The notes under the pieces are model-generated. The model ran no database searches, was not told the DNA's origin, and worked only from the letters and a program-made list of their open reading frames with translations. From Gammaproteobacteria bacterium (lineage in GTDB: Bacteria > Pseudomonadota > Gammaproteobacteria > SZUA-152), in assembly GCA_030599435.1 (NCBI GenBank), contig JAUVNZ010000077.1, positions 1 to 7,142 on the forward strand: a DNA stretch of 7,142 nucleotides, given 5' to 3'. Below, piece after piece: positions 3,956-7,142 of this stretch. A program made the position numbers and the translations under genes. The stretch's first letter is position 1, and every line of letters begins with the position of its first letter.

Positions 3956-4042
3956 GCATTCCCCACATCCCTGTGGGTTATGTGCAGGTGCCGCGAGAGC
4001 ATTTATGCCCTGTGGGTACAAGGATGTGTAAAGTGGTGTCGC

Positions 4043-5209
4043 TTAAATATTATGTGCTCGCTTTAAAGCAAGCCGAGTAAATACTGGCCCTATAATTTCA
4101 AAAAACACCGTTGAGCTGATAATAACTGATAAAAGTACCTGACGATATTCAGGGAAGTAGTTTGAGGCCACAAGCGCCATGCCTATTGCGACACCAGCCT
4201 GTGGGAATAAAGCAACGCCCATCCAGTTTTTTGTAGCCTTGTCAGCCCCGCTGAATTGGCTACCGATCCTGGCGCCGAGGATTTTTCCAGCGGCTCGACA
4301 TAAAATATAAATAACACCAATTAACCCGATTTCTTTCATCGTGCTGAGTTCAAGCGATGCCCCGGCAAGGACAAAAAAGACAACCATAAATGGCCATTCA
4401 ATACCTTCGATAGTGTGAAATGGATACTCGTGATGTTTAGCAACGTTCGCTATTACCGCACCGAGTACCATTGATGTAATCAAAAAAGACACCTCAAGCC
4501 AGATGGCCAGGCCACCACAAACGAAAACAAGACCGAGAGCTTCAGTTAAGATTGGTTGCCCTGGTTTAATCCTTCCTGTTAAATATGCAGCAGGTAGTCC
4601 AATTAATACTCCCAATATTACCGCGCCACCAATTTCTTTTGTTGCCATCAACAAGGGTGATATGTCTTCACCATGGCCATTTAATGCCGTCACTACGGCC
4701 ATTCCAATAGCAAATAGCACTAAAGCCCAAATGTCATCGAGTGCAACGATGGAAAGTAGAATGTCCCTAAATGGGGTTTTATCGTCCGTCTCTATGACGA
4801 CATCAAGAACTGCCGCTGGCGCAGTAGCTGATGCAATACAACCTAATAAGATTGCAATCTCTTTTGAAACTCCGGCCCATATAAGACCCAGACTCACAAT
4901 TGTTGCGGTTACAATTGCAGCACCGATGGAAATCCACAACACTTTACCTGCTGATTTTTTTAGGGAGTCCGTGGTGAGCTTGCCACCTAACAGAAAACCC
5001 ACCATGAGCAGCGCCATATCAGCAATAATTTCAAAATGCTTAATAAATGCTGACGGAACAACATCAATTACTTCCTTCCCAATAATTACCCCAAAAATTA
5101 GCAAGAGTGTTACTCGAGGCAGGAAGGAACGTCGTCCTAATGTGGATGTCACTAAACCAAGCAGAAGAATTCCGCCAAGTGTTAAAAGAAATTGAGATGT
5201 TGATTGCAT
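4043..5209 (-). CDS. Cation:proton antiporter, CPA2 (NapA/Kef-like) family
   Basis: This inner-membrane protein exchanges a monovalent cation (Na+ or K+) for protons, as in the Na+/H+ exchanger family. I prefer the ATG at 5209 (388 residues), which has an AGGCG ribosome site 8 bases before it. A GTG at 5224 would give 393 residues but has no ribosome site. Numbering from the ATG, about 12-13 hydrophobic segments are visible. The broken-helix motif SATAPAAVLD lies at 127-136. The ion-binding pair D158-D159 sits in ALDDIWALVLF. Later come the conserved RAAGK (305-309) and LFPQAGVAIGMAL (334-346) stretches. An Asp-Asp pair is typical of electrogenic exchangers such as NapA and NhaA, whereas Kef proteins usually have another residue at the first position. 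There is no RCK/TrkA-N regulatory domain, so it is a bare transport domain. It stands alone on the minus strand. Ion preference cannot be read from sequence. Confidence 0.9.
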   Translation of the reverse strand: MQSTSQFLLTLGGILLLGLVTSTLGRRSFLPRVTLLLIFGVIIGKEVIDVVPSAFIKHFEIIADMALLMVGFLLGGKLTTDSLKKSAGKVLWISIGAAIVTATIVSLGLIWAGVSKEIAILLGCIASATAPAAVLDVVIETDDKTPFRDILLSIVALDDIWALVLFAIGMAVVTALNGHGEDISPLLMATKEIGGAVILGVLIGLPAAYLTGRIKPGQPILTEALGLVFVCGGLAIWLEVSFLITSMVLGAVIANVAKHHEYPFHTIEGIEWPFMVVFFVLAGASLELSTMKEIGLIGVIYILCRAAGKILGARIGSQFSGADKATKNWMGVALFPQAGVAIGMALVASNYFPEYRQVLLSVIISSTVFFEIIGPVFTRLALKRAHNI

Positions 5210-5240
5210 GCCAAACGCCTGCACATATATTTTTGAACGA

Positions 5241-5371: not shown

Positions 5372-5482
5372 TCATGCTGCTTTGTTGGGTTTCTCCCGCA
5401 ATAAGTGGATAAATGCTTCCGAAACCGGGCTATCCAGGTTGGAGCGAACGCGTGCTATTGAGATATCAAACACCCTCACACT
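5372..5482 (-). pseudogene. C-terminal remnant, probably of a LysR-type regulator
   Basis: Leftward from 5482 to a TGA at 5374-5372, one frame reads SVRVFDISIARVRSNL, then DSPVSEAFIHLLREKPNKAA. The part SPVSEAFIHLLRE closely resembles the usual end of LysR-type regulators (a Ser-Pro followed by an Ala-Phe-Ile-x-x-Leu helix). The frame stays open only back to a TAG at 5521-5519, far too short for the roughly 300-residue family. There is also no start signal, and the promoter for the PqqD-like gene lies over its upstream end. I read it as the tail of a deleted regulator. The frame was recognised by eye from about 30 residues, so a chance resemblance remains possible. Confidence 0.4.
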
Positions 5483-5503
5483 TATCAGAATAGCTGCTAT
5501 ACT
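5475..5503 (+). promoter_or_regulatory. Sigma70-type promoter with extended -10
   Basis: The -10 box TATACT lies at 5498-5503, preceded by TGC at 5495-5497 (extended -10). Exactly 17 bases upstream is CTCACA (5475-5480), matching TTGACA at four of six positions. Transcription would start near 5509-5511, giving a leader of about 37 bases before the PqqD-like gene. Confidence 0.65.
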
Positions 5504-5546: not shown

Positions 5547-5837
5547 ATGACGAATTCCAAAGATTTGGGCTCATCATCTGGCTCTGAGTTATTCCCGCCA
5601 CTGGATGTGTTGAATCGCCTGGCAGTAAGTGAGAGTGGTTTCGTTTTTGATCCCTCTAGCGGCCACAATTTCACCGTGAATGAAACTGGTCTGTTTTTGT
5701 TGCGCCTTCTGTTGAAGGAGCAGCGCCTCGATCAAATACTCGAAACCCTGCATAATGAATTTGACGCTGATCCACGGGACATAGAACGTGATGTCATCGA
5801 GTTTGTTAGCGCCTTGCGTGAGAACGTGGGGGCCTAA
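5547..5837 (+). CDS. PqqD-like peptide-binding protein (RiPP recognition element fold)
   Basis: This 96-residue cytoplasmic protein matches the PqqD family in length and pattern. After a Ser-rich N-terminus (1-14), residues 22-39 (LNRLAVSESGFVFDPSSG) form the expected strand region. FTVNETGLFLLRLL (42-55) follows with the family's Asn-x-Thr-Gly turn into a helix. The last helices are LDQILETLHNEFDADP (61-76) and IERDVIEFVSALRE (79-92). PqqD proteins use a small winged-helix domain to bind the leader of a precursor peptide and present it to a modifying enzyme. In PQQ synthesis that enzyme is a radical SAM protein; none is seen here. The stop codon overlaps the ATP-grasp start (TAATG), so the two are probably translationally coupled and act together. 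It is the first gene after a clear promoter. Its client peptide is unknown. Confidence 0.85.
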   Translation: MTNSKDLGSSSGSELFPPLDVLNRLAVSESGFVFDPSSGHNFTVNETGLFLLRLLLKEQRLDQILETLHNEFDADPRDIERDVIEFVSALRENVGA

Positions 5838-6949
5838 TGTCTGTTTCTAAAACCAAGGTCAATGCCACGGTCGCTATCACTGGTATGAATGCCAAGCCAG
5901 ACAATCCGGGTCCCGGTGTGGCAGTAGCACGTTGTCTTCGCGAGTCGCCTGATTTCCAGGGCCGCATCATTGGCCTGGGTTACGATGCGCTGGATCCGGG
6001 TCTGTATCTGGATGATTACTGTGACGCCTCCTATCTCTTGCCTTATCCATCTGCTGGTGACGATGCCTTGCTGGATCAATTGCATATGATTCAGCAACGA
6101 GAACAGATTGATATCTTGTTACCCTGTCTGGATGCAGAGCTACCCGGCATGGTGCGTTTGCTGCCGGCGTTAAAAGAAATGGGTTTCAAAACCTTTCTTC
6201 CTACCGCCGGACAATTGCACCTGCGCAATAAGGATCGTCTACCAGAACTGGCGGAGATGGCCGGTATTTATTGTCCCGAGATCAAGGCCATTACCCAGGC
6301 GGGGTTCTTCTACAAATGTCAGGAAGAGGGCTGGTCGTACCCATTAGTGGTGAAGGGCCTGTTTTATGGTGCCTACATTGTTCATAGTGCGGACGAGGCC
6401 GCCGATGCCTTTCGCAAGATTGCTGCCGAGTGGGGTTTTCCCGTATTGGTGCAGGCAATGGTCAAGGGCGAGGAATACAACCTCACTGCGGTGGGAGATG
6501 GCGAGGGCAACCTGCTTGGGTCGGTAATGATGAAAAAAATGGCGGTTACCGACAAGGGCAAGGCCTGGTCCGGTATCAGCATTGATGACCAGCCCCTGCT
6601 GGAGGCCAGTGTCGCTCTTGCCAGGGCTATTAAATGGCGCGGTCCGCTGGAAGTGGAAGTCATACGAGATCAGCAAGGTCATTATCAATTGATTGAAATT
6701 AATCCACGGTTTCCTGCCTGGATTTACCTCTCGGTGGGTGTTGGACGCAATTTGCCGCTTACCTTATTGCAGCTAGCCATGGGGCTGAAACCTGATTCCT
6801 TTACTGAAACAAAAGCCGGCGTGTTGTTTATTCGTTATGCGGTGGAGAACATTGTGCCTATCGCTGAATTTGAATCGGTTGTTATGCAGGGTGGCCGGCA
6901 CATGTCGGGTAATGTTTCGACTGTCAGTGAGTCGCCCAGCAATGAATAG
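5837..6949 (+). CDS. ATP-grasp ligase partnered with the PqqD-like protein
   Basis: This 370-residue protein is a cytoplasmic ATP-grasp enzyme of the CarB/PylC-like kind. Such enzymes activate a carboxylate as an acyl phosphate and join it to an amine or other nucleophile. The N-terminal pre-ATP-grasp half shows AITGMNAKPDNPGPGVAVAR (13-32) and DILLPCLDAELPGM (92-105). ATP-binding residues include K173 in YPLVVKG and E212-E213 in GEEYN. Metal-binding residues are E272/E274 in LEVEV and E287, N289, R291 in IEINPRFPAW. A conserved-looking LSVGVGRNLPLTLLQLAMG (298-316) follows. The active-site set appears complete. The ATG overlaps the upstream stop by one base, with GGGGG at 5828-5832 as ribosome site. 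It does not look like the microviridin/graspetide ligases, and its substrate is unknown. Coupling to a PqqD-like protein suggests a peptide or protein substrate, which is inference. Confidence 0.88.
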   Translation: MSVSKTKVNATVAITGMNAKPDNPGPGVAVARCLRESPDFQGRIIGLGYDALDPGLYLDDYCDASYLLPYPSAGDDALLDQLHMIQQREQIDILLPCLDAELPGMVRLLPALKEMGFKTFLPTAGQLHLRNKDRLPELAEMAGIYCPEIKAITQAGFFYKCQEEGWSYPLVVKGLFYGAYIVHSADEAADAFRKIAAEWGFPVLVQAMVKGEEYNLTAVGDGEGNLLGSVMMKKMAVTDKGKAWSGISIDDQPLLEASVALARAIKWRGPLEVEVIRDQQGHYQLIEINPRFPAWIYLSVGVGRNLPLTLLQLAMGLKPDSFTETKAGVLFIRYAVENIVPIAEFESVVMQGGRHMSGNVSTVSESPSNE

Positions 6950-6999
6950 CGGTTAAATGGGAGTAGTAAAAAAAGAATAAATGTGAAAAGGATGATGTT

Positions 7000-7142
7000 A
7001 TGACTGAAGAAAGCTCCCAGGGTGAAACTCAAGATAAGAATGAGACAACTAAAAGGGTCTGGGTTAAGCCTACGATTACCGCACTGCATACCGGCACCAT
7101 CAACAAATTTGGCGCCATGCGACATGAACAATGGCGCGACAA
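7000..7142 (+). CDS. Third gene of the PqqD/ATP-grasp set, cut by window edge
   Basis: The frame opens with ATG at 7000 after an AAAGGA ribosome site (6987-6992) and stays open for 47 codons to the window end. ATGs at 6992 and 6995 run into a stop at once. Residues 1-19 are polar and acidic-to-basic (MTEESSQGETQDKNETTKR). VWVKPTITALHTGTINKFG follows, with W21, P24 and I26. This W-x-x-P-x-I pattern resembles leader motifs bound by PqqD-type domains (compare Y-x-x-P-x-L in lasso leaders), which would make it a precursor peptide. Equally, the NKFG....WRD stretch could be the start of a full-size enzyme, for example a PLP-dependent decarboxylase. The gap to the ATP-grasp gene is 50 bases with no terminator, so it probably belongs to the same operon. 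The real length is needed to decide. Confidence 0.7.
   Translation, partial: MTEESSQGETQDKNETTKRVWVKPTITALHTGTINKFGAMRHEQWRD

Follow-up and report, generated by a model that had tools for sequence, protein, structure and literature searches.

A leader-like tail on a PLP decarboxylase encoded with a discrete RRE and an ATP-grasp ligase suggests RiPP-type recognition turned onto an enzyme

The known role of RREs is to grip short precursor peptides. According to excerpts of a study of their discrete forms, these bind leaders of the type [Y/W]xxPx[L/V/I/F/A]; in LppB, Asn33 holds the leader backbone at the Pro, Asp70 bonds to the Tyr, and Phe74 packs on the Pro, the same positions being occupied in PbaB1 by Gly42, Gln79, and Phe83 (PMC13381572). 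In lasso leaders, YxxPxL spans positions −17 to −12, with Thr at −2 and Gly at +1 (excerpts of PMC10368454). A survey of RREs includes the motif W/Y/LxxP; its sections 6 and 7 describe no leader borne by an enzyme, and a term search found "decarboxylase" absent from its main text (PMC12710340). Among decarboxylases, BtrK, which acts on carrier-bound glutamate, and MccE are precedents from the clade of the enzyme considered below, and Met355 of FigC is predicted to stack on the acylated substrate (excerpts of PMC7857480).

At the right end of the window (the whole stretch of 7,142 nucleotides that was analysed), we find an operon that combines elements of these systems (Table 1). The first-pass annotation had described here a PqqD-like gene overlapping an ATP-grasp gene by one base, behind its own promoter and with a third gene close behind. 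The overlap is indeed a single base common to the two ORFs (TAATG at 5835–5839), and the third ORF begins 50 nt after the end of the ATP-grasp ORF, at 7000; the promoter did not hold up, as the region upstream of the RRE gene contains one sigma-70-like site with 9 of 12 matches, fewer than the average of 2.8 in shuffles of the region and no better than chance. In relatives, the product of the third gene is a PLP decarboxylase of approximately 470 aa from the fold group of LysA, FslC, and BtrK, with PF02784 and PF00278 found in the products of three relatives; a close full-length homologue of the protein cut by the window end is P0089 (496 aa).

Table 1. Coordinates of the operon genes and associated features in the window
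Feature	Coordinates	Strand	Basis
Discrete RRE (PqqD/lasso-B1-like), 96 aa	5547..5837	+	PF05402, PDB chain matches, conservation
ATP-grasp ligase, CarB/PylC-like fold, 370 aa	5837..6949	+	ATPgrasp_Ter, CPSase_L_D2
PLP decarboxylase (Orn/DAP/Arg group), first 47 codons, cut at window end	7000..7142	+	
Leader-like tail WVKPTITALHTGTINKFG	7060..7113	+	Sequence, conservation, lasso numbering from PMC10368454 (excerpts)
Sigma-70-like site preceding the RRE gene (weak, no better than chance)	5475..5503	+	

Elsewhere in the window, an ammonium transporter (54–1352, PF00909), close to the NCBIfam "marine subtype" TIGR03644 and under its cut-off, precedes an ORF of 219 aa, whose MIT match is sub-threshold, and a Band-7/SPFH protein; all three apparently lie outside the operon. 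A sodium/hydrogen exchanger gene (4043–5224, minus strand) is directed away from the operon, and synteny of another locus (L033) with the window, at 84.6% identity, begins at 4040, near this gene.

The 96-aa product of the first gene matches the Pfam PqqD profile PF05402 with E 1.2e-13 and 51.6 bits against a cut-off of 23.4, so that its description as PqqD-like can be sharpened to a true PqqD/RRE domain. It lies under the cut-off of every NCBIfam PqqD model listed, the best being lasso_PqqD_Strm (40.8 bits vs 70), and the PqqD model of the PQQ pathway scores it at 27.0 bits against 46. The best PDB chain for the single sequence is TfuB1 (6jx3, E 1.4e-4), and a family profile matches TfuB1 (E 3.7e-10), TbiB1 (E 1.3e-7), and PbaB1 (9x90, E 0.0058), with LppB at E 0.2 only. 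The profile alignment to PbaB1 places Asn45, Asp82, and Phe86 opposite Gly42, Gln79, and Phe83, and their equivalents in LppB are Asn33, Asp70, and Phe74. Among 55 readable distinct RREs, Asn45 is kept in all, Phe86 in 54, and Asp82 in 42. Thus, the residues of the leader-binding cleft are retained in the window RRE, and leader binding itself is predicted. In seven of 13 operon-bearing genomes, the operon RRE is the sole match to the PqqD domain, and in one (G085) it falls under the Pfam cut-off.

The 370-aa ATP-grasp ORF matches ATPgrasp_Ter (37.4 bits, cut-off 29.1) and CPSase_L_D2 (21.1 bits, cut-off 19.8); it reaches none of the NCBIfam cut-offs, its matches there being CPS-like models. 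Lys132, Lys173, Glu274, Glu287, and Asn289, which we take to be the ATP and metal residues of the ATP-grasp fold, are invariant in all 30 aligned sequences, in line with the earlier description of these residues as intact. In one genome (G004, that of locus L002), two ATP-grasp matches each have PqqD-domain and decarboxylase matches nearby on the same contig, which suggests two copies of the operon, one of the ATP-grasp matches having an internal stop.

A first scan of genome contigs with the ATP-grasp protein yielded 35 loci. A profile made from the window RRE and those of 25 of the loci detected the RRE gene in 32 of the 35, bearing out the coupling of the PqqD-like and ATP-grasp genes across genomes. 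In the other three, a partial RRE gene was recognised by eye (L028), the contig starts inside the ATP-grasp gene (L008), or the 141 bases preceding the ATP-grasp gene show no RRE (L030). The contig extends past the third gene in 30 of the 35 loci, and in 29 of these 30 the gene directly following is a relative of a urea-transporter/M23 (UT-M23) fusion; barrel-like and TPR proteins are also present in 19 of 35. PF03253 and PF01551 were found in two UT-M23 queries. In L034 (12490–14697) and its relatives, the M23-like domain joined to the urea-transporter domain has HLH and AHL motifs, and its first metal motif (TH...ALD) differs from that of M23. An alphaproteobacterial locus (L031) has its UT gene past the RRE gene, divergent from it and encoded by the other strand. 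We found no paper in the openly licensed literature that treats a urea transporter and peptidase M23 together.

The same association is seen in wider samples. Among 78 genomes of one class, that of locus L023 from Mariprofundus sp. EBB-1, the ATP-grasp gene is present in 19, and the tailed decarboxylase in these 19 and in G020, where the operon is divergent; UT-M23 occurs in 18 of the 19, in G020, and as a contig-edge fragment in G040, being missing in G026, whose decarboxylase is cut by the contig end. Of 398 genomes sampled from the phylum, 39 contain a relative of the decarboxylase, with an RRE nearby in 35; three of the remainder are cut by contig ends (L046, L061, L083), and the fourth is an orphan (L081) that has neither the tail nor, within 17 kb, an RRE, ATP-grasp, or UT gene, and that has Thr rather than Met beside the catalytic Cys. 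Because three operons (L077, L092, L093) combine the RRE, ATP-grasp, and decarboxylase genes with no UT-M23 in the 12–12.5 kb fetched, the minimal unit comprises the RRE, the ATP-grasp ligase, and the tailed decarboxylase. All three are also the operons with Thr at tail position −2. This trio is present in several proteobacterial classes, and the tailed decarboxylase also in Campylobacterota, where no RRE was seen in L046, whose contig starts inside the ATP-grasp gene. The genome of L046 is grouped with the class of G001, and the contig may be a contaminant; no plasmid-borne relatives of its decarboxylase were found at E 1e-60.

As to described operons, the earlier suggestion that the pathway is distinct from those of PQQ and lasso peptides agrees with the gene content: PqqE was over the cut-off in none of 13 operon genomes, and the operon genes (RRE, ATP-grasp, decarboxylase, UT-M23, barrel-like, and TPR) include neither a macrolactam synthetase nor a B2 peptidase. 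A short precursor with this leader, as expected of lasso and graspetide pathways, was not found at the sensitivity of the tail profile described below. A role in anti-phage defence was also considered, and six proteins gave no PADLOC match.

The N-terminal part of the decarboxylase carries a tail motif, [WY]xxPx[IL]x9KxG, which precedes the core. In the window protein, Trp21, Pro24, Ile26, Lys36, and Gly38 fall on lasso positions −17, −14, −12, −2, and +1, respectively. The tail is present in all 32 first-scan loci where the decarboxylase start is on the contig, in 117 of 120 homologues of a Mariprofundus protein among the matches listed, and, as Y..P.I.........K.G, in 117 of 120 homologues of a divergent protein, likewise among the matches listed, where seven organisms are named (three Sulfurimonas, two Sulfurovum, one Helicobacteraceae, and one vent metagenome). 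Of the six misses, four start late (P0033, P0231, P0238, P0239), P0095 is partial, and P0052 has a five-residue insertion. In an alignment of 251 sequences, from which five truncated ones had been dropped, position 23 is Trp or Tyr, Pro26 occurs in 251, Lys38 in 248, and Gly40 in 249. In three operons (listed as L075–L077), Thr stands in place of Lys38, so lysine chemistry does not extend to the whole family; the motif halves are one residue closer in L031, L068, and L070 and five further apart in P0052, so that the lasso register is not exact everywhere.

The motif is absent from 16 of 16 paralogous decarboxylases of family-bearing genomes (one of which, L104, probably lacks its start) and from 1444 other open frames of the loci, and it arises in one of 12150 shuffled N-termini. 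In the AlphaFold2 model, ten-residue mean pLDDT is 42–57 over residues 1–40 against 82.5 for the whole protein, so that the tail probably lies outside the folded part. Compared with 5.8 billion proteins, a profile made from 20 tails found no free precursor of similar length: 152 candidates gave three matches, all of them N-terminal fragments of the same decarboxylase, in a search that needs shared five-residue words and hence could miss a distant precursor. The first-pass annotation had proposed ligation on a peptide or on a protein-borne leader; the second part agrees with the presence of the leader-like sequence on an enzyme, the product of the third gene, while no free peptide emerged for the first.

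A lasso-like register with Gly at +1, a variable stretch behind it, and the peptidase-like M23 domain encoded nearby would suit a classical RiPP, with the N-terminal part of the decarboxylase modified and cut off as the product. We regard this as very improbable, given the lack of both leader peptidase B2 and macrolactam synthetase among the operon genes, of any conserved modifiable residue after the motif in the Proteobacteria branch, and a distance from the Trp/Tyr to the core of 40–42 residues wherever measured.

The RRE and the tail also vary together. Where both genes are readable, all 39 [WY]xKP tails, the four Tyr tails among them, are paired with Asp82, and all 11 W[ED][PVL]P tails with Ala, Gly, or Ser at position 82 (from 12 rows, leaving out L086 as a repeat of the genome of L068). 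On a tree of 50 ATP-grasp proteins, the switch involving Asp82 and tail Lys25 is one change on one branch; the covariation, being a single event, agrees with a contact and is no proof of it, nor a replicated, independent test. Binding of the decarboxylase tail by the RRE is a well supported prediction.

Such binding may additionally be read out as regulation, as the architecture of some RREs suggests. Among the first 35 loci, 14 of 30 uncut RRE proteins are 255–276 aa long, with a long N-terminal region and the RRE as the C-terminal part (L034, 9159–9977, and 13 others). Of the two examined for Pfam TetR_N, L034 contains it and L013 does not. Where it could be recognised, the additional N-terminal region resembles TetR; its presence points towards a further, regulatory function, and these proteins are possibly leader-sensing regulators. 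On this evidence, and with an ORF just upstream in L010 that looks TetR-like by eye, one may propose that an RRE fused to a TetR-like DNA-binding region senses the free decarboxylase tail and adjusts expression of the operon. As an account of the whole system, this is unlikely: the RRE of the window and of other gammaproteobacterial loci is discrete, with no DNA-binding part, and the constant ATP-grasp gene would be left unexplained.

Turning to the decarboxylase core, the two main branches share 48% identity there and 25% in the linker. Public databases name the protein diaminopimelate decarboxylase or alanine racemase, and it could simply be an ordinary diaminopimelate decarboxylase whose extension has no meaning and whose neighbouring genes are unrelated. 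Three relatives score 207–224 bits with the LysA model TIGR01048 (cut-off 297.9), and in 14 genomes the family proteins, in one case that of the untailed orphan, score 202–231 bits, all under the cut-off. A separate LysA over the cut-off is present in eight of these 14 genomes; six have none, which would leave room for a housekeeping role, and in G067 nothing except the tailed protein matches the model, the genomes without LysA being probably incomplete assemblies. The active site differs as well, all eight LysA paralogues having Cys–Glu where the tailed family has Cys–Met. Together with the absence of the tailed protein from 58 of the 78 genomes of the Mariprofundus class, the strict coupling, and the tail conservation, this disfavours a housekeeping LysA, and we consider the ordinary enzyme hardly probable.

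The closest solved sequence is instead the N-citrylornithine decarboxylase 7kh2 (E 1.8e-57), in an alignment that starts beyond the tail, 7kh2 being considered from residue 36 on; the scores of three relatives with the FslC model NF041039 are 207–214 bits against a cut-off of 500. Met beside the catalytic Cys (Cys393–Met394) is present in 251 of 251 aligned tailed decarboxylases, matching Met355 of FigC as described in the excerpts cited above, and all 16 paralogues have Glu, Thr, or Asp. These likenesses favour docking only, i.e., an RRE scaffold that joins the decarboxylase and the ATP-grasp ligase for two successive steps on a free small molecule, e.g., an N-acylated diamino acid, the tail being unmodified. 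The replacement of the tail Lys by Thr in three operons points the same way, unless the Thr is a hydroxyl acceptor. Docking does not obviously explain why Lys and Gly, 12–14 residues past the conserved Pro, are conserved nearly as well as catalytic residues. Overall, we hold this possibility to be nearly as likely as acylation of the tail.

Starting from the observed gene set, tail, intact RRE cleft, and gene coupling, we favour, with a probability of approximately 0.45, a scheme in which the leader-tailed decarboxylase is gripped by the RRE, the ligase is brought in, and the tail Lys is probably acylated, following a carrier logic like that of BtrI/BtrJ/BtrK. In its best supported step, the [WY]xxPx[IL] segment of the tail would form a beta strand clamped in the RRE cleft. 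Gene coupling and RRE precedent make it likely that the ATP-grasp ligase acts jointly with the RRE and thereby reaches the tail. The ligase might then, as we guess from analogy, activate a small carboxylic or amino acid as the acyl-phosphate, and the activated acid would most likely be joined to the tail Lys at lasso position −2, making the tail a carrier arm and the acylated Lys a tethered substrate for the decarboxylase. The core could, again as a guess, decarboxylate the tethered or acylated amino acid in the manner of BtrK, in cis or across the dimer; more speculatively, the product may be handled by UT-M23 and the envelope proteins encoded downstream. The strongest form of the scheme, in which the decarboxylase carries its own substrate on the RRE-held tail, receives it at the −2 Lys from the ligase, and then itself decarboxylates the bound amino acid, is rather doubtful, and we put it forward tentatively.

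We found no description of the operon or of a leader-bearing decarboxylase in the openly licensed literature. With the discrete RREs of lasso and LPP pathways (TfuB1/FusB1, PbaB1, LppB), the system shares the RRE family, the leader motif, and mostly its spacing, as well as the cleft Asn and Phe, and the Asp with all four readable Tyr tails. It differs in that the leader there is on a short precursor and here on an enzyme of approximately 470 aa, in having Lys (248 of 251) or Thr (three) at −2, where lasso leaders have Thr, and in lacking the lasso cyclase and B2 peptidase among the operon genes. With PqqD/PqqE it has the PqqD domain in common, the RRE being under the cut-off for PqqD of the PQQ pathway. 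FslC/FigC (7kh2) is the best match among solved structures and shares the Cys–Met active site, as far as the excerpts cover it, whereas the NCBIfam model, with its cut-off of 500 bits, gives a score of 213 and the NIS-synthetase partner is not among the operon genes.

The butirosin side-chain system BtrI/BtrJ/BtrK likewise combines an ATP-grasp enzyme with a decarboxylase that belongs to this fold group. BtrJ loads the carrier, and the present ligase would be its counterpart by analogy. BtrK acts on a carrier-tethered amino acid (excerpts of PMC7857480), whereas here the proposed carrier is the tail of the enzyme itself, with no acyl carrier protein seen and an RRE instead of a phosphopantetheine arm. 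If true, this would lead from RiPP-type recognition to a carrier-arm pathway on an enzyme, with neither an acyl carrier protein nor a peptide product. A conserved grip sequence on a catalytic enzyme would widen the uses of leader recognition, and RiPP mining restricted to short ORFs would miss such systems. What is new here is thus a known type of recognition, of a leader by an RRE, predicted on a new kind of client, an enzyme.
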